A stretch of 64,000 nt of DNA from NCBI RefSeq assembly GCF_026319325.1, contig NZ_JAPDMU010000002.1:372001-436000 (forward strand), in the 5' to 3' direction. Of this stretch, positions 53,245 to 64,000 are shown in pieces. Below the pieces are notes generated by a model. That model saw nothing but the letters and a program-made list of their open reading frames with translations, made no database searches and was not told the origin of the DNA. This stretch comes from Methylophaga sp. OBS3. Its GTDB lineage: Bacteria > Pseudomonadota > Gammaproteobacteria > Nitrosococcales > Methylophagaceae. A program made the translations under genes and the position numbers. The number at the start of each line of letters is the position of its first letter. Position 1 is the stretch's first letter.

Positions 53245-53810
53245 TGGCTCATATAAATTTACTGCCATGGCGTGAAGTCCGCCGTCAGGAACGTCAGCAA
53301 CAATTCTATGTAGCATTGGTGGCGGGATTGATTTTTGCACTAGCGGTGCTGTACTTCGCAACGTCTTTTGCGAATGGCTTGATTGATGAACAAAACAGCC
53401 GTAACAGTTATTTGCAACAAGAAATTGCTCAGCTCGACAAAGTCATTAAGGAAATTCAGAACCTAGAAAAAGCGCGGGCTCGACTTGTTGCCCGTATGCA
53501 AGTTATTCAAGAGTTACAGGCAAGTAGACCTAAGGTTGTTAAGGTCTTGGATGCGTTGGTTAGAACGGTACCGGAAGGTATCCACTTAGATACAGTTAGT
53601 CGTGTTGGTGAAGACTATACTCTGCAGGGCGTTGCCCAAAGTAACGCAAGAGTTTCAGTATTTATGAATCAGTTAGACAACGATGCTGAGTTTAACGAAT
53701 CAAAACTCAAAGTTGTTGAGAGAACTTCTTCACGACGTGATGATGCAATTCGTAAATTCACCCTCAATGTTGATGAAAGTAAACCTGCTAAAAATGAGGA
53801 GGACAAATAA
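53244..53810 (+). CDS. pilN: Type IV pilus assembly protein PilN
   Basis: Inner-membrane alignment protein, 188 residues. The PilM-binding motif INLLPWRE is at 4-11, one helix spans about 23-45, and a coiled coil (about 50-85) leads to a ferredoxin-like periplasmic domain. Overlaps pilM and pilO by one base each. Confidence 0.95.
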   Translation: MAHINLLPWREVRRQERQQQFYVALVAGLIFALAVLYFATSFANGLIDEQNSRNSYLQQEIAQLDKVIKEIQNLEKARARLVARMQVIQELQASRPKVVKVLDALVRTVPEGIHLDTVSRVGEDYTLQGVAQSNARVSVFMNQLDNDAEFNESKLKVVERTSSRRDDAIRKFTLNVDESKPAKNEEDK

Positions 53811-54400
53811 TGGAATTATCCTCATTATCCGATCTGGATTTTAATGAAAGCGGTGAATGGCCGTTACCAATTAAAATTATCTCTATCATCCTAATTTGTT
53901 TGGTGGTTTGGGGTGCTGGTTACTATTTGATTATCAAAGACAAACGTACTGAGTTAGCTTCACTGGAGCAAAAAGAGTTGGAACTCAGAAAAACCTTTGA
54001 GGATAAGCAAGCAAAAGCCGTCAACCTTGAGGCTTACAAAGAACAGATGAAAGAGATGGAAGTTGTTTTCTCAGGCATGCTCGAACAGCTTCCACGTAAA
54101 AATGAAGTCGCTGACTTACTGGTTGATATCTCCAGAACGGGATTAATTAATGGTCTGGAATTTGAATTGTTCAGACCAGAAAGTGAGCGACCAATAGATT
54201 TTTACGCTGAATTGCCGATTACGATGCGGTTAACAGGTAAATACCATCAATTTGGCGAGTTCGTCAGTGGTGTCGCAGCTTTACCACGTATTGTGACACT
54301 CCATAATTTCAAAATGGGGCCACTGAAAGAAGATACTGGCATGATGACGATTGACCTTACAGCAAAAACGTATCGTTATTTTGATGAGAAAGACAAATGA
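53810..54400 (+). CDS. pilO: Type IV pilus assembly protein PilO
   Basis: Partner of PilN in the inner-membrane alignment complex, 196 residues. A short cytoplasmic N-terminus (ending NESGEWPLPIK) precedes one helix (about 24-42). A coiled coil (about 45-85) and a ferredoxin-like domain follow. Overlaps pilP by four bases. Confidence 0.94.
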   Translation: MELSSLSDLDFNESGEWPLPIKIISIILICLVVWGAGYYLIIKDKRTELASLEQKELELRKTFEDKQAKAVNLEAYKEQMKEMEVVFSGMLEQLPRKNEVADLLVDISRTGLINGLEFELFRPESERPIDFYAELPITMRLTGKYHQFGEFVSGVAALPRIVTLHNFKMGPLKEDTGMMTIDLTAKTYRYFDEKDK

Positions 54401-54948
54401 TGGGGCCTACAATGCATACTAATGTTTTTCGGCCTGCCCTCATTTTTTGGCTTGCTGCTTTTATTTTGCTGACCGGTTGTCAGCCCGAGAAAGACGATCT
54501 AAGAGCCTATGTTGCTGAGGTTAAATCACAGTCTCAGTCGGATATTCCGCCAATACCAGTGATGAAGCCATATGAAAAGTTTGAGTATGCAGCCGAGAAT
54601 CTCAGGGATCCTTTTGTACCGACAGTGGTTGATGTACCAACTAGTGAGATCGCTGGCAGTTTAGACAATGGCATTAGTCCAGATACTAATCGACGCAAAG
54701 AAGCGCTCGAGTTTTTTGCGTTATCAGATTTGCAGTTTGTGGGCACACTTGAACAAGATACTATTTGGGCACTTATTAGAGCGCCTGACAGTGTGATTCA
54801 TAAAGTGCGTACTGGTAATTATATGGGTAGTAACTACGGTCAGATCTTGGCCATTAGTGACAGTGAACTAAAATTGAAAGAGATCGTGCCGGAAGGCAAT
54901 GGTTATGTAGAGCGAGAAACCTCTCTTTCTGTGGTAGAGATTAACTAA
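54397..54948 (+). CDS. pilP: Type IV pilus assembly lipoprotein PilP
   Basis: Lipoprotein linking PilN/PilO to the PilQ secretin. 183 residues from the first ATG; alternative ATGs at codons 2 and 6 give the same lipobox LTGC with Cys28. A proline-rich linker (about 48-58) leads to a beta domain with the family stretch FFALSDLQFVGTLEQ. pilQ follows 12 bases later. Confidence 0.94.
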   Translation: MMGPTMHTNVFRPALIFWLAAFILLTGCQPEKDDLRAYVAEVKSQSQSDIPPIPVMKPYEKFEYAAENLRDPFVPTVVDVPTSEIAGSLDNGISPDTNRRKEALEFFALSDLQFVGTLEQDTIWALIRAPDSVIHKVRTGNYMGSNYGQILAISDSELKLKEIVPEGNGYVERETSLSVVEIN

Positions 54949-54960
54949 AGGCCATTCGAG

Positions 54961-57114
54961 ATGACTAGCAGAGACGTAATGACAATGGACAGACAACAGC
55001 TCCTGGCTCACCGTGGTAGTGATAAGTATCTTCGTTTAGGCGGTTTAGGGATCTTTATGACCATGTGGTTAGCCGCGACAGCACAAGCGGCAGACCTACA
55101 GAACTTAGATTTCAATAGTTTGCCCGGTGATAAAGCGCAGGTCACATTAACGTTTTCAGAGCCAGTAGAAGCGCCAAACAATTTTGCGACAGATGAGCCA
55201 GCTAGAATTGTCTTGGACTTTGATGGTGTCAAAAATGCTTTAAGTGAGCGTACCCGCCAGATTAATAGTGGTGAAACTCGCAGCATTGCCACCGTGGAAG
55301 CCGGTGATCGTACAAGAATGGTTATCAACTTGTTACGTAAAATTCCATACGAAATTCAAACAGACGGTAATATCGTCAAAGTCACTTTGAATGGTAATGC
55401 GCCACAAATGTCGAACAGTCAGGCTCGTGGTAGTGCTGTTCCAATGAGTGGTAATCAAGTGACGAATGTTGACTTTCGTCGTGGTGAAGATGGTGAGGCG
55501 CGGGTAATTATTGACTTGGCTTCTGCCGGTGCTGCTGTTGATGTAAGACAAGAGCGAGATACCGTTGTAGTTGAATTACCTGGTGTAGCGTTGCCAGAAA
55601 AACTACACCGTCGTTTAGATGTCGTTGATTTCGCAACACCAGTTTCATTGATTGATGCTGAGCAAAGCCGTGATGGTACAACTTTAACACTGACGACAAA
55701 CCGTGACTTCGAACATTTAGCGTATCAATCTGATAACCAGCTGGTTGTTGAAGTTAAAGCGCGTGAAACGGTTTCTCAATCAGATAGAGCTGGTGATCAA
55801 GTTGGTTATACTGGTGAAAAGCTGTCACTTAACTTCCAAAACATTGAAGTGAGAGCAGTATTGCAGCTGCTTGCAGATTTCAACGGTATGAATCTGGTGA
55901 CCAGTGATACGGTAACTGGCAATCTGACATTACGTTTGAAGAATGTGCCTTGGGATCAAGCTTTGGAAATCATTTTAAAAACCAAAGGTTTGGCAATGCG
56001 TCAAAATGGCAACGTAATGTTAATTGCACCAGCTGCCGAAATCGCTGCGCGTGAAAAGCAAGAGCTTGAAGCAAAGAAACAGTTAGTCGAGTTAGAACCG
56101 CTGTATTCAGAAATTATCGAAGTTAATTTTGCAAAAGCCGATGAAATTGCGACGATTTTGACTACAACCCAAGGTGACTCAGCTGATGGTAAAGGTGGAT
56201 TTTTATCTGAGCGAGGTAGCGTGGTTGTTGATGCTCGGACAAACTCATTGTTACTGCGTGATACGGCGGACCAGTTAGTTCAAATCCAAAAACTGATTGA
56301 GCAATTAGATATTCCAGTGCGTCAGGTCTTAATTGAGTCACGTATCGTTATTGCCAATAATGATTTTAGTAAAGAATTAGGTGTTCGATTTGGAGCTTCT
56401 GGGCGAAGCCGTACACTTGGAGCAGGTACGTCAGGCTCATTGGATGGACTAGAAGTTCGTGAGGGTAATAGCAATCCAAATCTTTCCTCACCAGTAGGCA
56501 TGGGGAATGATCCAAGAGGTTTAGGTGAAGACCTGAATGTTAATTTACCAGTAACAAATCCTGCAGGGAGCATTGCGCTTGCATTAGCGAAGTTACCAAT
56601 GGGTATGATTTTGGAGCTTGAGCTTTCAGCGATGCAAGAAGAAGGTCGTGGTGAAGTTATTTCTAGTCCTCGGGTTATTACCTCAAATCAAAAACAAGCC
56701 ACAATTGAACAAGGTACTGAGATCCCTTATCAGGAAGCCTCTTCAAGTGGTGCGACATCAGTGTCATTTAAAGAAGCAGTATTAAAGTTAGATGTAACCC
56801 CCCAAATTACACCTGATGATCGGATTGTGATGGATTTGGAAGTCAATAAAGATGAAGTTGGTGAAATCTTCTTGGGCGTACCAAGTATTGATACCCGTAG
56901 CGTGAAAACACAGGTTTTGGTAGACAATGGTGAGACTGTGGTGCTTGGGGGTATTTACGAACAAACCAAAAATACTGGTGTTCAGCGTGTCCCATTCTTT
57001 GGCGACTTACCTTATGTCGGTGTGTTATTCAGAAATACCTTCAACGAAGATCGTCAACGTGAGTTGCTTGTCTTTGTTACACCAAAGATTGTTAAAGAGG
57101 GCATGCAATATTAG
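54961..57114 (+). CDS. pilQ: Type IV pilus outer-membrane secretin PilQ
   Basis: Multimeric outer-membrane gate for the pilus. 717 residues. The signal peptide lies behind a rather long N-terminal region and ends near ATAQAAD (about 38-44). Two AMIN domains that bind peptidoglycan (about 48-145 and 150-265) follow, then the N0 (STN) domain near 285-350, N1, and the secretin pore domain (about 460-715) with VPFFGDLPYVGVLFR near the end. A terminator-like hairpin follows 36 bases later. Confidence 0.96.
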   Translation: MTSRDVMTMDRQQLLAHRGSDKYLRLGGLGIFMTMWLAATAQAADLQNLDFNSLPGDKAQVTLTFSEPVEAPNNFATDEPARIVLDFDGVKNALSERTRQINSGETRSIATVEAGDRTRMVINLLRKIPYEIQTDGNIVKVTLNGNAPQMSNSQARGSAVPMSGNQVTNVDFRRGEDGEARVIIDLASAGAAVDVRQERDTVVVELPGVALPEKLHRRLDVVDFATPVSLIDAEQSRDGTTLTLTTNRDFEHLAYQSDNQLVVEVKARETVSQSDRAGDQVGYTGEKLSLNFQNIEVRAVLQLLADFNGMNLVTSDTVTGNLTLRLKNVPWDQALEIILKTKGLAMRQNGNVMLIAPAAEIAAREKQELEAKKQLVELEPLYSEIIEVNFAKADEIATILTTTQGDSADGKGGFLSERGSVVVDARTNSLLLRDTADQLVQIQKLIEQLDIPVRQVLIESRIVIANNDFSKELGVRFGASGRSRTLGAGTSGSLDGLEVREGNSNPNLSSPVGMGNDPRGLGEDLNVNLPVTNPAGSIALALAKLPMGMILELELSAMQEEGRGEVISSPRVITSNQKQATIEQGTEIPYQEASSSGATSVSFKEAVLKLDVTPQITPDDRIVMDLEVNKDEVGEIFLGVPSIDTRSVKTQVLVDNGETVVLGGIYEQTKNTGVQRVPFFGDLPYVGVLFRNTFNEDRQRELLVFVTPKIVKEGMQY

Positions 57115-57150
57115 CGTCAATATTCGCCGCTATAGTATTGGCATCATGTT

Positions 57151-57178
57151 AGCCGGATCTGAAAAGATCCGGCTTTTT
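57151..57178 (+). terminator. Hairpin terminator between pilQ and aroK
   Basis: Perfect 9-bp stem AGCCGGATC / GATCCGGCT around TGAAAA, followed by four more T residues. It lies only 31 bases before the aroK start, with no room for a normal promoter in between, so aroKB must be reached by read-through or from a promoter overlapping the hairpin or the end of pilQ. Confidence 0.85.
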
Positions 57179-57209
57179 GTCGTTTAAAATCCGGGAAACG
57201 CTGGTAGTT

Positions 57210-57743
57210 GTGATTTCAGGTAATATATTTCTAGTTGGACCAATGGGGGCGGGTAAGTCCACAATTGGTCGGCAACTCGCCAAAAAACTAAAGCGCCGTT
57301 TTTGGGACAGTGACCGTGAAATTGAGCAGCGTACAGGTGTATCAATTTCTTGGATTTTTGAGCGAGAAGGTGAAGCTGGTTTTCGTGATCGAGAGCAAAA
57401 AATGATCGACGAATTAACCGACCTTAAAAATGTGGTGGTTGCGACCGGTGGTGGTGCAATTTTGGCAGAAAAAAATCGTCAAAATTTAGCAGACCGAGGT
57501 ACGGTGATATATCTCGCAGCAACAGCAGAACAACTTTATCGCCGAATGGCTCGCGATAAAAGCCGGCCGTTATTACAAACTGGCGATAAACGACAACAAA
57601 TTAAACAGTTATTAGCTCAGCGGGATCCGTTGTATAGGGAAATTGCCGACATTACGATCCCAACCGGTGAGCATTCTGTTCAACGCACGGTAAGTGAAGT
57701 TATTCGACAATTAGAAAAAGTGAATAAAGAACAATCAACATGA
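57210..57743 (+). CDS. aroK: Shikimate kinase I
   Basis: Phosphorylates shikimate at O3 using ATP. 177 residues from the chosen GTG, which fits the family N-terminus ([16 protein letters not shown]). The frame is open up to a TTG at 57177, but that lies in the tail of the terminator hairpin. Walker [13 protein letters not shown], shikimate-site [11 protein letters not shown] and ATGGGAIL, and the LID arginine in DKSRPLL are present. The exact start is uncertain. Overlaps aroB by four bases. Confidence 0.93.
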
Positions 57744-58819
57744 TGAAAACGTTACAAGTTGCACTCGGTAAGCGCAGTTATCCGATTTATATTGGTGAGC
57801 AGCTTCTGACACAAACAGAATTGTTTGCAGCTCATATTAAAGGCAAAGAAGTACTGATTGTTACCAATGACACAGTTGCACCACTATATTTGGATACGGT
57901 CAAAGAAACGTTAGCGAATTATCGTGTTGAAACCGTTATCCTGCCTGATGGTGAGCAATATAAAACATTTGAAGTTTTACAGGCTGTTTTTGATGGACTG
58001 CTAAAAGCCAGAATGTCACGTCAAACTACTATCATAGCTTTAGGTGGTGGCGTAATTGGTGATATGGCTGGCTTTGCTGCAGCATGTTATCAACGTGGTG
58101 TGCCATTCATCCAAGTGCCAACCACTTTACTGTCTCAAGTGGATTCCTCTGTCGGTGGTAAAACAGCAGTAAATCATCCTCTTGGCAAAAACATGATTGG
58201 TGCTTTTTACCAGCCACAATGTGTTTTTGCGGATATTGATACGCTAAATACGTTAGATGATCGTCAATTGTCTGCTGGGTTGGCTGAGGTCATCAAATAT
58301 GGCCTGATTAATGATGCCGATTTTTTTGATTGGCTTGAGGCCAACATGGCAGGTCTCGTTGCACGCCAACCTGAATTATTAACGCAAGCAATTGCACGTT
58401 CTTGCCAAGATAAAGCCGATACCGTTGCTGCGGATGAACGTGAGCAAGGCGTTCGGGCTCTACTGAATTTAGGACATACCTTTGGTCATGCAATCGAAAC
58501 AGGCTGTGGCTATGGTGTTGTGCTCCATGGGGAGGCTATTGCGATTGGTATGGTCATGGCGGCTGATTTATCGCAGCGTTTAGGTTGGATACAAACCGCT
58601 GAAGTAGAACGTATTAAGTCAGTATTACAAGCTGCTGGATTGCCAATAACAGTACCTGAAGAAATGACGACAGGTCGTTTTATGGATTTGATGGCCGTGG
58701 ACAAGAAAGTCCAAGATGGCGCTATACGCTTAATTCTGATGCGGGGCATTGGTCAGTCAGTTATCAGTGATGATTATGCGCCAGAACATTTAGCGGCTAC
58801 TTTGGACGCATTCTGCTAA
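57740..58819 (+). CDS. aroB: 3-dehydroquinate synthase
   Basis: Second step of the shikimate pathway (DAHP to 3-dehydroquinate), using NAD and a divalent metal. 359 residues, usual length. NAD-binding LPDGEQYKT and [15 protein letters not shown], substrate site [15 protein letters not shown], and metal ligands Glu in GLAEVIKYG and His in [10 protein letters not shown] are all seen. The first of two tandem ATGs overlaps aroK; damX follows after ten bases. Confidence 0.96.
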
Positions 58820-58829
58820 GGATTAGTTT

Positions 58830-60428
58830 ATGACGGAAATGCATGCTACTGCGGAGCCCGCTTATCTAGACCGTCTTGCATTGCATAGTAATCCGTTTAG
58901 CCGGCAAAACCTGCCTGGAAGCTTTTTTGCTGGCAGACAAGTGAGTCAGCGACTTAATTTAATCTTACATTTGCTTCGTAGTAGCAGTCAGATCTGTCTA
59001 CTACATGCCGCCGATGGTTTGGGTAAGTCTTCTTTATTGCGCGCTGTCCAACAACGAGCTGGTGAGGATTTACGTTTTTGCTTATTAACTGCTGGTGAAA
59101 ATATCAGCCTCGCCACAATTACACAGCAGTGTTTACAAGCTTTTGGTAGCACTGGTGATACGCAACTTGGTGGCGATCAGCAACAGTTACTTCGGCAGCG
59201 TCTGCAACAGTTATCGCAAATTCAGATAACACCAGTTTTGTTACTTGATGATGCTGACAAATTAGATAGCAGCATTCAGCAACAATTAGCGACTTGGTTG
59301 CATTGGCAGCATGAAGGCCAATATTTGTTAAAGGCCGTTGTTGCGACGAATAACATCACAGCAATTCAAAACATTCGAAACGACCGCTTCCAAGAACTGG
59401 AGTTGTTGCCAGTCGCAACGGATGAAATCCCTGCTTATTTATTACAAAGACTGCAAGCCGCAGGCTGGCAGGATGATCTGCCATTTACGGATAAACAACT
59501 ACAACGCATTCAAAAGCGAAGTAATGGTATTCCATCAGAAATAAATCATCAGGCTCATCAGCAACTTCTTGGCGTGAACCGAAGTTGGCAGCTACCTGCT
59601 TTACCTTCATGGCGAATGCCTAAGTGGATTAAATGGTTACCTATGTTGCCGGTAGCCATTGCCTTATTACTGTTATTAATTTTCCAGAAAAATATCAATG
59701 AATGGCTTGGGCAAAGTCAGCCAACGGACAATGATGTTGAGGAAATTATCGAGGCACCTGAGTTGCCAATGGTGGTAATTGATGAAGATACTGTGCTCAC
59801 AAATGCAGAGGCTGAAAAGCAAAATTTAATTGAGTTACTGGAAGAGCTGGAAGAGACACAAAGTGTCGAATCACCATCAATAGGTGAGCCATTCATTACT
59901 GAGCAGATAAGTACGGTTGAGCAAGCTAGTGATTCATCAGATACACAAAATGTGGTGGAAGAGGAATCGGTTGTCATCCCTCCTTTTACGCCTGTAGATG
60001 AGATGCCTACGCAAACTACTGAAGCTTTGCGCGATACCGAAGTAGAAAAAATTGAGACAATTGTTGAAGTAAAAACGCCGGAAGCCAAACAATCTGAGCA
60101 GCCTAAGTCAGTGAATAAGGTTCACGGCGCAGACTGGATCATGGAGCAACCAAAGACAGCGTTTACGTTTCAGCTAATGGGCAGCTGGGACAGAAGTGAA
60201 ATTGACGACTACATTAAAAAGTACCAGTTAACTGGTAATGTCGCGGTATTTGCCAGCATGCGTAATAACCAAGTGTGGTATGCGTTAATTTACGGGGTTT
60301 ACAACAGCAAAAATGCTGCTGTCCAAGCAAGTGCCAAATGGCCTAAACCTTTAAATGGTGTATCGAGCTGGCTGCGTCGATTTGATGGGGTCCAGACGCA
60401 GATCAGAGATAAGGCGCCAGACGCATAA
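58830..60428 (+). CDS. damX: DamX-like protein (AAA domain and SPOR domain)
   Basis: Cell-division protein that binds septal peptidoglycan through its C-terminal SPOR domain. 532 residues. The N-terminal AAA-type ATPase domain (about 15-250) has Walker A AADGLGKSS and Walker B VLLLDDADK. One helix lies at about 268-288. A long acidic linker (about 290-435, mostly Glu, Val, Thr and Ser) precedes the SPOR domain (about 445-525, FTFQLMGSWDRSEIDDYIKK). Place behind aroKB as in other gammaproteobacteria. The last 26 bases overlap the end of the convergent decarboxylase gene. Confidence 0.88.
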   Translation: MTEMHATAEPAYLDRLALHSNPFSRQNLPGSFFAGRQVSQRLNLILHLLRSSSQICLLHAADGLGKSSLLRAVQQRAGEDLRFCLLTAGENISLATITQQCLQAFGSTGDTQLGGDQQQLLRQRLQQLSQIQITPVLLLDDADKLDSSIQQQLATWLHWQHEGQYLLKAVVATNNITAIQNIRNDRFQELELLPVATDEIPAYLLQRLQAAGWQDDLPFTDKQLQRIQKRSNGIPSEINHQAHQQLLGVNRSWQLPALPSWRMPKWIKWLPMLPVAIALLLLLIFQKNINEWLGQSQPTDNDVEEIIEAPELPMVVIDEDTVLTNAEAEKQNLIELLEELEETQSVESPSIGEPFITEQISTVEQASDSSDTQNVVEEESVVIPPFTPVDEMPTQTTEALRDTEVEKIETIVEVKTPEAKQSEQPKSVNKVHGADWIMEQPKTAFTFQLMGSWDRSEIDDYIKKYQLTGNVAVFASMRNNQVWYALIYGVYNSKNAAVQASAKWPKPLNGVSSWLRRFDGVQTQIRDKAPDA

Positions 60429-61530
60429 AGACATCTTCTGCGCGAGCATGACGATCGGCAAAAACGATACGATAATAAGGCTGTTTATTGAGTGTTGTTT
60501 GTGACAGAACTTGCTCATCAATAGGCGGTTGTAAATTCTTGTTATGCTGAAAGCAGATGATGCCGGTTTCACCATAAATAAGATGACCAACTTTGCCTTG
60601 CAATAAGGCCATAAGCTGCTGAGACTCTTCAATTTTTCGTTTAAGATCTATTTTTATCTCGCACAACCCATGATGCTGCAGCGTCAGCCATAGCGATAAA
60701 AAATACTCTCCGCCCCTTGAGCCAATCAGACGCGTATCAGGTGCTTCTGATAAATACTCTGCATTGCTTGTGACTTTGGCTAGCGGCTGTTTATAAAACA
60801 ATAAACCACAGGGTCTTGGCTGACCGAGGGATTTATGTGGATCAAAACATAGTGAGTCAGCATAAAGACCAGCATCACTGATAGCGGTAACGTCTAATAA
60901 AGCCATAAAACCGCCCCAAGCCGCATCAATGTGAAACCAACATTGATATTGTTTGGCTATCTCAGCAATGTTAACTAACGGATCAATATGGCCACCACTC
61001 GTGCTGCCAGCATTAGCGATAATCGCAAGGGGTTTTTCAGCCTCGCAAGCCTGCTGAAGAGCTTGAAGGTCTATTCTGTAATCACTATCAGTCGGAATTT
61101 GAATTAACGATAAGCCTAAAAATAGGCAGGCCTTATTAATCGAATAATGACAGCTATCACTGACATAAACAGTATTTAGGTTGGGGTAACGTGCCTTGGC
61201 TTTAGCTAACGCCTCCAAGTTACCCATACTGCCACCTGTAGTGAAATGGCCAAAAGGAAACGAAAAAAGCGCAGCCATTTCAGCAAGCGTATCCGCTTCA
61301 ACTTGCCGTAGCGTTGGAAAATTGGCGGCTGATAATAAATTTCCTTGATGCAATGTTGCTAAAACCTGGCCTGCCAACGCTGCTGGATAAAGACTACCGC
61401 TCATATGCGCAGTTTGGGTAAAGGGCTTTTGGACAGTCTCATCAATAAGCTGTTGGCATAGTGACTTGGTTTCACCATTTAAAACCAAGCCAAGCTCATC
61501 AACTAATCCATCAAAAAACGTTTTGGTCAT
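60403..61530 (-). CDS. Group II PLP-dependent decarboxylase, MfnA-like (putative tyrosine decarboxylase)
   Basis: 375-residue pyridoxal-phosphate decarboxylase. The fold-type I motifs are clear: TGGSMGNLEAL binds the cofactor phosphate, HIDAAWGGF holds the PLP-contacting Asp, and DPHKSLGQPRPCGLL carries the Schiff-base lysine. Relatives decarboxylate tyrosine, aspartate, glutamate or diaminobutyrate. I prefer an MfnA-like role (tyrosine to tyramine, first step of methanofuran synthesis) because the next gene upstream is MfnE-like and the pair overlaps by four bases. Substrate is inferred from context, not from residues. Its end overlaps damX tail to tail by 26 bases. Confidence 0.75.
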   Translation of the reverse strand: MTKTFFDGLVDELGLVLNGETKSLCQQLIDETVQKPFTQTAHMSGSLYPAALAGQVLATLHQGNLLSAANFPTLRQVEADTLAEMAALFSFPFGHFTTGGSMGNLEALAKAKARYPNLNTVYVSDSCHYSINKACLFLGLSLIQIPTDSDYRIDLQALQQACEAEKPLAIIANAGSTSGGHIDPLVNIAEIAKQYQCWFHIDAAWGGFMALLDVTAISDAGLYADSLCFDPHKSLGQPRPCGLLFYKQPLAKVTSNAEYLSEAPDTRLIGSRGGEYFLSLWLTLQHHGLCEIKIDLKRKIEESQQLMALLQGKVGHLIYGETGIICFQHNKNLQPPIDEQVLSQTTLNKQPYYRIVFADRHARAEDVFMRLAPYL

Positions 61531-62099
61531 GTTAAACGCAGGTTTGAGCTGAGGCTGCTATTGAGGTTTGACTCTTGAACAATGTAGCAGGGGAGCGGAT
61601 ATTGATGGTATAGCGTTGAGAAGTGCCTATCTAACACACCCGTTTTTGTTAACGTTTTGATGTCATAGTCATAAAGATCACAGCTTTTAACAATAATCAG
61701 CTGCTCAGCCTGATGTTGCTGAGCTAACCAAAGCGCAATGCTATCGGAAGTCACTGCCCAAGAGCAGGGTAAGTCCGTTTCCATCATAGCCTTGTCATCA
61801 GGGAGCCAAATATACAGCCCTGTTTTGGGGAGCGTTGATAGATGATGGACGGCTGTTGCTTCTGGCTGCATATCAAGCAACAGTAAAGCAAATTGTTTCA
61901 TGGCAATGATGGCCATTTGATGTGCGGAAGTGTCTGATAGCTGGTGATCTTGCTGGGCCTCACGAACACAATCCGCAAATGGACCGCCACCTGCAACAAC
62001 CAAAATTGATGATGTTTTTGCTTCGTTTTGCAGCTTGTGTAACCAGCTTTTTAAGCGAGGTTGATGATATAAGCTGCCACCTAGCTTGACGACATTCAT
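61527..62099 (-). CDS. Amino acid kinase family protein, MfnE-like
   Basis: 190-residue small kinase. The N-terminus MNVVKLGGSL is the phosphate-binding loop of the amino acid kinase fold, followed by VVAGGGPFADCVRE. Later come WAVTSDSIALWLAQ and LIIVKSCDLYD. Archaeal MfnE, which phosphorylates an aminomethylfuran intermediate of methanofuran, is of this fold and has, as recalled, these features. The methylotroph homologue is often annotated only as a uridylate or delta-1-pyrroline kinase. It overlaps pabB and the decarboxylase gene by four bases each, so all are made together. Confidence 0.72.
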   Translation of the reverse strand: MNVVKLGGSLYHQPRLKSWLHKLQNEAKTSSILVVAGGGPFADCVREAQQDHQLSDTSAHQMAIIAMKQFALLLLDMQPEATAVHHLSTLPKTGLYIWLPDDKAMMETDLPCSWAVTSDSIALWLAQQHQAEQLIIVKSCDLYDYDIKTLTKTGVLDRHFSTLYHQYPLPCYIVQESNLNSSLSSNLRLT

Positions 62100-63481
62100 T
62101 GTTGGCGCAGTTGCTCGACAAGATGCAACATCGCTGCGGCTTTATCCAATACTTCCTGATGTTCGTCTGCACAATCTGAGTCAGCAACAATGCCGCCACC
62201 TGCCCAAAATCTGAGTCGGTTATGGTTATAGACCAATGTACGGATAGTAATGTTACTGTCCATATTGCCGTCAAAACCAATGTAGGCAATGCTGCCACAA
62301 TAAACGCCGCGCCGGTGTGGCTCGAGTTCTTCGATAATTTCCATAGCACGTAATTTCGGTGCACCGGTAATAGAGCCACCAGGGAAGCACGCACGAAGTA
62401 GTGATACAGGACTTTGATCCGCTGCTAAGGTTCCTGTGATGGTACTCACCAAGTGATGCACTGTAGCGAAAGACTCTAAGGCAAATGCTTTTGGTACTTT
62501 GATGCTGCCTGGTACGCAAACTTTGCCCAAATCGTTGCGAAGTAAATCCACGATCATCAGATTTTCAGCGCGGTCTTTGAGGCTAGTTAAAAGCTCATCG
62601 GCATTTTGTTTATCTTTCGCCGGGTTATTTAGCGCTCGTGGACGCGTACCTTTAATCGGTTTGGTCTCAATTTTACCATTGCGAACTGATAACAGTCTTT
62701 CTGGTGATGAACTGAGCACACAGGCTTTTGGCGTATCCAGAAATGCCGAGAACGGCGCAGCATTATGTTTTCTAAGTAACTTATAAGCTGCCCAAGGGTC
62801 ACCATCAGCAGCTATTTCAAATCGTTTGGCAAGGTTTACCTGATAACAGTCACCTTCAAGAATGTAGTCTTGAATACGCTGAAAAGCTTTAGCATAGGTC
62901 GACTCATCCATATTGGTATTAAGCTGACCTGACACTTTAAATTGACTATTTAATGGCGTGAGATTCTCAAAGCGCTTCACCAACAACGACAATAACGTTT
63001 CACTGTAGGGATCAAAGTTATGACAGACCAAGATACAGCTTTTGGTTTGATGATCGATGAGAAGCGCCCAATCATAAATACCGACAGCCATCTCCGGTAA
63101 ATGCTCAACATCTTCAGCCTTTATCGGTAAAGACTCAATGACACGGCCTAAGTCATAGGCAAAGTAACCAATCGCACCACCAGTAAAAGGAAAGTCAGCA
63201 CTGGCCGTTGGAAAGCGGGCTAATTGTGTTTGTAGTAGGTGGAACGGATCTTCGTGGTGGCTTTCAGATGTCTTATCGCGGAACTGAATATGTGTTTTAT
63301 CTCCCGAAGTTTCTAGGGTGATAAATGGGTCAGCTGTAATAATATCGAAGCGGCCAATATCATCAGCCATACCCGCACTATCAAGCATTACTGGCCAAGG
63401 GAGATCGCGGATCTGCTCAAAATAAATTGCACCATCGGCATGGTAGGGCAAGTTGATATGGCGCAGGCTAGATTCAGTCAT
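62096..63481 (-). CDS. pabB: Aminodeoxychorismate synthase component I
   Basis: Makes 4-amino-4-deoxychorismate from chorismate, the precursor of p-aminobenzoate. 461 residues. The chorismate-binding domain has ETKPIKGTRPRA, where the Lys in PIKGT marks PabB; anthranilate synthases have PIAGT. Further conserved stretches are NLMIVDLLRNDLGKVC, FPGGSITGAPK and YCGSIAYIG. p-Aminobenzoate serves folate and, in C1-users, H4MPT. The pabA partner is not in the window. It lies between an MfnF-like gene and an MfnE-like gene. Confidence 0.93.
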   Translation of the reverse strand: MTESSLRHINLPYHADGAIYFEQIRDLPWPVMLDSAGMADDIGRFDIITADPFITLETSGDKTHIQFRDKTSESHHEDPFHLLQTQLARFPTASADFPFTGGAIGYFAYDLGRVIESLPIKAEDVEHLPEMAVGIYDWALLIDHQTKSCILVCHNFDPYSETLLSLLVKRFENLTPLNSQFKVSGQLNTNMDESTYAKAFQRIQDYILEGDCYQVNLAKRFEIAADGDPWAAYKLLRKHNAAPFSAFLDTPKACVLSSSPERLLSVRNGKIETKPIKGTRPRALNNPAKDKQNADELLTSLKDRAENLMIVDLLRNDLGKVCVPGSIKVPKAFALESFATVHHLVSTITGTLAADQSPVSLLRACFPGGSITGAPKLRAMEIIEELEPHRRGVYCGSIAYIGFDGNMDSNITIRTLVYNHNRLRFWAGGGIVADSDCADEHQEVLDKAAAMLHLVEQLRQQ

Positions 63482-63490
63482 TCGACTATT

Positions 63491-64000
63491 TTACGTGAAC
63501 TGTCGCCAGCCAAGAAGCGCTAATGCAGTAGCTGGCGCACCAATGGTCGCTTGCGCATTTAATTGTAAATCCGCCATATCGAGATAAGGTCTATTTAATT
63601 TCTGAGCAAGCGTTAAAGCCAGAAAACGACCAACCCCCGCACCGATGACAGGGGCTTCTGGCATAAGCTTGTGTGTTTCAATAACTTGTTGGCAGGCTTG
63701 CAGCAGTTGTTGTATTTGTTGCTGCCCATACCACTCAGCCAATTCTTGCCAAGTTTCTTTCGAATAGTTTTCAGCGTCACTACCCACCATTCTTGCCAGT
63801 CGCTGTTGGCAGTGTTGTGCTTGCCATGACTGTCCATCAGCACTGCTATCAGCAATATCGACTGGTAACATATTTTGTAATCGCCAAACATCGGCTGTGG
63901 TAGCGAAAACTTCATTAGCTACTCGCTGATGAAGTCCTGAAAATGGTACATCCTGCGCTAATGCCATTAATGGTGTTCGAATCACGCCGTTATAAACCAG
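63491..64000 (-). CDS. H4MPT-linked C1 transfer pathway protein, MfnF-like (5' part outside the window)
   Basis: C-terminal 169 residues of a protein that continues past the right edge; the frame is open to the last base. The fragment contains VYNGVIRTPLMALA at its start and ends in VIGAGVGRFLALTLAQ and TIGAPATALALLGWR. These are, as recalled, marks of the TIGR03123 family (probable H4MPT-linked C1 transfer pathway protein, hydantoinase/acetate kinase fold), whose archaeal member MfnF joins the furan and tyramine parts of methanofuran. Nine bases separate it from pabB. Family assignment is from pattern memory and should be checked. Confidence 0.7.
   Translation of the reverse strand: MVYNGVIRTPLMALAQDVPFSGLHQRVANEVFATTADVWRLQNMLPVDIADSSADGQSWQAQHCQQRLARMVGSDAENYSKETWQELAEWYGQQQIQQLLQACQQVIETHKLMPEAPVIGAGVGRFLALTLAQKLNRPYLDMADLQLNAQATIGAPATALALLGWRQFT

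Follow-up and report, generated by a model that had tools for sequence, protein, structure and literature searches.

A lineage-specific decarboxylase gene closes a predicted methylofuran/H4MPT operon in Methylophagaceae

The window analyzed here, a stretch of 64,000 nucleotides (C4:372001-436000) from a Methylophaga genome assembly of 2.3 Mb (8 contigs, 94.7% complete), includes all but the first gene of a five-gene operon that runs mfnD-mfnF(orf9)-pabB-mfnE(orf21)-mfnA-like. The decarboxylase gene at the end of this operon is its lineage-specific and new element. From the identities of the genes at the family level, their order, their conservation and their co-occurrence in the genome, all directly observed, we infer with good confidence that the operon belongs to the H4MPT/methylofuran island of a Methylophaga-type methylotroph, in which the decarboxylase would supply tyramine and the product would be a tyramine-type methylofuran.

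Results

Four open reading frames run on the minus strand of the window at 60403-61530, 61527-62099, 62096-63481 and 63491-64000, the last one cut by the edge, and they are joined by two 4-base overlaps and a 9-base gap, the tight spacing already described in the initial annotation. The last gene of the operon (60403-61530) encodes an mfnA-like short group II PLP decarboxylase of 375 aa, a predicted L-tyrosine decarboxylase that matches PF00282 and, below the cut-off, TIGR03812. It is preceded by mfnE/orf21 (61527-62099, 190 aa; PF00696, NF040622) for a predicted [5-(aminomethyl)furan-3-yl]methyl phosphate kinase, by pabB (62096-63481, 461 aa; TIGR00553, 1k0e, PIKGT) for aminodeoxychorismate synthase component I, and by the 3' part of mfnF/orf9 (63491-64000; TIGR03123). 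DNA beyond the window completes the edge gene (L001:5491-6525, 344 aa) and adds, upstream of mfnF, a fifth co-directional gene that is MfnD-like and overlaps it by 8 bases (L001:6518-7483); the divergent orf17 starts 23 bases further upstream. The five genes are presumably co-transcribed. Promoter-like sites were rarer than in shuffled sequences, and terminator-like sites were hardly more common than in them; neither type of site serves as evidence here. Since the same succession of tightly packed genes is found again across the genus, the family and the order, the arrangement cannot be attributed to chance.

On the other side, the C1 operon is flanked by pilO, pilP and pilQ-like pilus-assembly genes, aroK and aroB (window 53810-60428), and the order of pil genes, aroK and aroB is constant across most of the order, which makes this an unusually stable neighbourhood. 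The 3' end of the decarboxylase gene meets a convergent AAA/SPOR-type gene (58830-60428, plus strand) in a 26-base overlap (60403-60428), and comparable convergent overlaps were seen again in relatives.

The initial annotation had proposed an MfnF-type coupling enzyme at the edge, an MfnE-type kinase and PabB, and all three identifications are supported. The whole MfnF/Orf9 protein reached 318.2 bits with TIGR03123 (cut-off 244.1) and 154 bits with the MfnF model NF040623, below its 520. The kinase, with 39.2 bits for PF00696, is an MfnE/Orf21 homologue whose best NCBIfam match is MfnE (NF040622; 87 bits, below the cut-off of 300), a model matched by 12/12 of its relatives with hardly any other family. 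Likewise, the fifth gene product is an ATP-grasp protein with MfnD as its best match, at 89.6 bits and below the curated cut-off. A Hadesarchaeal MfnE located inside a methanofuran block also stays under the MfnE cut-off of 300, with 132.8 bits, and because the cluster it belongs to has a clear MfnA and falls under both the MfnE and the MfnD cut-offs, these cut-offs are to be regarded as strict. PabB exceeded the TIGR00553 cut-off (378.8 against 328.4 bits) and matched E. coli PabB from end to end (1k0e, E 1.6e-126). At 275 it carries the motif PIKGT, the lysine of which is diagnostic of aminodeoxychorismate synthase; the other chorismate-binding protein of the genome, TrpE, has PIAGT, the form typical of TrpE. 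As this PabB and this TrpE are the only ones in the genome, the pabB of the operon probably serves both folate and H4MPT. In the literature, Orf22, Orf21 and Orf9 are given as homologues of MfnB, MfnE and MfnF (PMC8141765), and mfnD has been identified with orf1 (PMC5020050).

The operon lies in a classical bacterial "archaeal-like" C1 island, with mch (420.4 bits), orf5/myfB, orf7 (CitG family), fae (213.4 bits) and orf17 clustered beside it at L001:7507-11664. Elsewhere in the genome, fhcBADC is found at C4:261101-265801, with all four genes above their cut-offs, and a separate island contains mfnB (orf22), DUF447, a dihydropteroate-synthase-like protein and an AfpA-type flavoprotein. The search past position 64000 and through the genome thus recovered mch, fae, fhcABCD, mfnB and the afpA-type gene, in accord with the methylofuran/H4MPT reading first proposed for the window. 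A methylotrophic host, suspected at the same time, is supported by a PQQ methanol dehydrogenase above the cut-off and by the named relatives of the locus (Methylophaga muralis, aminisulfidivorans, thiooxydans and sulfidovorans), and the gene content marks the genome as that of a predicted methylotroph with an H4MPT/methylofuran pathway. PF02663 (FmdE) was absent from the genome, which is uninformative on Fhc. The H4MPT pathway has been reported in all Methylophaga genomes studied, and expression of its enzymes in Methylophaga thiooxydans (PMC6548844). Methanol dehydrogenase fragments occur at contig ends of the assembly (G000 C4:11-1093, C5:11-1093 and C7:3-410), two of them with identical match coordinates; near-identical gene copies are the probable cause of these contig breaks.

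In regard to conservation, 12 larger loci from within the genus and the family share the gene order mch-orf5-orf7-fae-orf17-mfnD-mfnF-pabB-mfnE-mfnA. Six sister-family genomes have the same mfnD-mfnF-pabB-mfnE block but lack the decarboxylase. Furthermore, among 26 loci of the class outside the family, pabB adjoins mfnE in 24, with mfnF in its place in one and neither of the two in the remaining one. The pairing of pabB with mfn-like genes, which had seemed new in the initial annotation, is therefore ruled out as a novelty by these loci (6/6 in the sister family) and by published work, in which pabB is commonly linked with H4MPT biosynthesis in methylotrophs (PMC3615186) and counted among the H4MPT pathway genes (PMC4109929); such pairing is common across the class and, as a type, was known before. 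Within one genus (genes at window 60403-62099 and L001:6518-11664), identity to the proteins of the window's operon is only about 33-47% for MfnE, the MfnA-like protein and MfnD, compared with about 85% for Mch and 95-98% for Fae, so that the genes for making the cofactors diverge much more rapidly than those for the pathway enzymes.

The decarboxylase lies directly behind mfnE in 31 of the 32 other family genomes that have mfnE. The exception (G010, locus L008) is a genome of the same genus, small and 68% complete, in which pabB and mfnE are present without the decarboxylase and without the SPOR gene before aroB, and its missing decarboxylase reflects either genuine gene loss or a defect of the assembly. 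Outside the family, where 26 loci were read among 370 sampled genomes of the class, none had the decarboxylase behind mfnE. The subfamily was not found elsewhere in the six sister-family genomes either, where the best score was 137.7 bits as opposed to 466-604 bits within the family, and 37 non-family genomes with mfnE yielded no match over 137 bits. In a collection of named genomes, mfnE is followed by the decarboxylase in 39 Methylophagaceae-type loci, many of them named Methylophaga, a count that leaves out the Hadesarchaeal locus, where mfnE and mfnA are not adjacent. These loci were gathered with the decarboxylase alignment (a single-protein MfnF scan gave no matches there). The sets of genomes and loci compared here partly overlap. 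A search of mostly open papers found no description of a decarboxylase encoded in this operon of Methylophaga.

With 104.5 bits for PF00282, the protein is a group II PLP decarboxylase, the only PF00282 protein in the genome, and its residues H128, D202 and K233 are invariant among relatives. The structure model has a mean pLDDT of 79.6. The initial annotation had likened it to MfnA, and this holds for the enzyme group and for the best NCBIfam match, TIGR03812 (MfnA), but not for membership, as the score is 127.7 bits and the curated cut-off 299.4. No MfnA over this cut-off was found among the 370 sampled genomes of the class; the true Hadesarchaeal MfnA reaches 441.8 bits and shares 33% identity with the decarboxylase over 257 aa. 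A first tree with long-branch rows was unreliable and was rebuilt without those rows, and the family's decarboxylases form one clade of their own (support 100/99). Holding them together with archaeal MfnA gave a p-AU of 0.227, in a test that included a single, long-branched archaeal row. Judged by its sequence, the decarboxylase belongs to a separate subfamily outside MfnA as curated, and since it scores below the cut-off and its placement with MfnA is neither shown nor rejected by the tree, we do not file it as a member of MfnA.

Discussion

The genes described above can be joined into one probable pathway. The decarboxylase would convert tyrosine to tyramine and CO2, and the MfnD-like ATP-grasp ligase would join tyramine to glutamate. 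MfnB, encoded at the other locus, together with a putative transaminase would yield aminomethylfuran phosphate, which MfnE would turn into the pyrophosphate; MfnF would then couple the two halves, and MyfB (orf5 of the same island) would add glutamates. PabB would provide p-aminobenzoate as a precursor for dephospho-H4MPT and probably also for folate. The expected outcome would be a tyramine-type methylofuran bound to Fhc and the oxidation of formaldehyde to formate via Fae, Mch and Fhc.

The step from tyrosine to tyramine is the one for which another explanation has to be weighed. Because the decarboxylase falls below the MfnA cut-off, in a separate subfamily, its predicted tyrosine activity rests on context, and it is by its place in the operon that an MfnA-like role and the formation of tyramine appear most likely. 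The last gene of a methylofuran operon might also act on another amino acid, such as histidine, diaminobutyrate, aspartate or tryptophan, its position being accidental or serving some other function, with a cofactor of the tyrosine type as in Methylorubrum. Such an explanation would be in line with the scores for the histidine (111.9 bits) and diaminobutyrate (107.5 bits) decarboxylase models, close behind that for MfnA, with PDB sequence and fold searches in which tryptophan and other decarboxylases rank above MfnA, and with the tyrosine form being made by Methylorubrum without any decarboxylase (PMC8141765). We nevertheless consider it unlikely, as the strict family-wide adjacency to mfnE and the absence of the subfamily from mfnE-bearing genomes outside the family tie the decarboxylase to the cofactor. 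The operon also encodes an MfnD-like ligase, an enzyme that uses tyramine in archaea, yet MfnD-like genes are present in the sister family without the decarboxylase as well. Aspartate decarboxylation for beta-alanine is weakened as a candidate because the genome has one PanD and does not need a second enzyme for it. That the cluster, although conserved, is a partly degraded relic with no working pathway, as the MfnE, MfnD and MfnA scores under the curated cut-offs might imply, is highly improbable given the intact reading frames and invariant key residues, the complete complement of Fae, Mch and Fhc genes, the MfnE and MfnD scores of the Hadesarchaeal cluster with its clear MfnA, which also lie under the cut-offs, and the expression of H4MPT enzymes in Methylophaga thiooxydans (PMC6548844).

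If the decarboxylase supplies tyramine, as we favour, it is possible that the enzyme of Methylophagaceae is an independently recruited tyrosine decarboxylase other than MfnA, inserted once in the ancestor of the family, and that an ancestral tyrosine-type cofactor was thereby changed to the tyramine type, a scenario that we put forward as tentative. Two forms of methylofuran are known, and the tyramine type is established in bacteria, where MfnA homologues were found in only 3 of the 6 tyramine-type strains, from which it was inferred that other tyrosine decarboxylases must exist (PMC8141765). The source of tyramine was thus left unexplained in half of these strains, and a decarboxylase fixed beside mfnE throughout a family whose sister family lacks it gives a direct genetic prediction of cofactor type: tyramine-type methylofuran is predicted in Methylophagaceae, perhaps via a recruited enzyme.

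Such a locus is a modest and testable variant of a known gene-island system. Bacterial gene islands of this kind were reportedly described by Kalyuzhnaya et al. in 2005. The H4MPT/methylofuran islands of Methylorubrum extorquens, Methylobacillus and Methylosinus hold the same genes (mch-orf5-orf7-fae-orf17, orf9, orf21, orf22 and pabB), and the order mch-orf5-orf7-fae-orf17 in Methylosinus trichosporium (PMC3615186) is the same as here; the difference lies in mfnE being directly behind pabB and followed by the decarboxylase gene. In M. flagellatus, a putative mfnA is located by the mxa cluster (PMC8141765). Archaeal MfnA (TIGR03812, 3f9t) resembles the protein of the window in enzyme group (group II PLP decarboxylase) and in length (about 375 aa); the latter differs in its score and in its separate, well-supported clade. 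On the side of archaeal methanofuran biosynthesis (MfnA-F), no pabB was found in the Hadesarchaeal block L147, and its MfnA passes TIGR03812, whereas that of the window does not. Still, this contig carries mch, orf5, mfnA, mfnB, mfnD, mfnF, mfnE and orf17 in one block, with mfnD, mfnF and mfnE as neighbours, and in this it is strikingly parallel to the bacterial operon.
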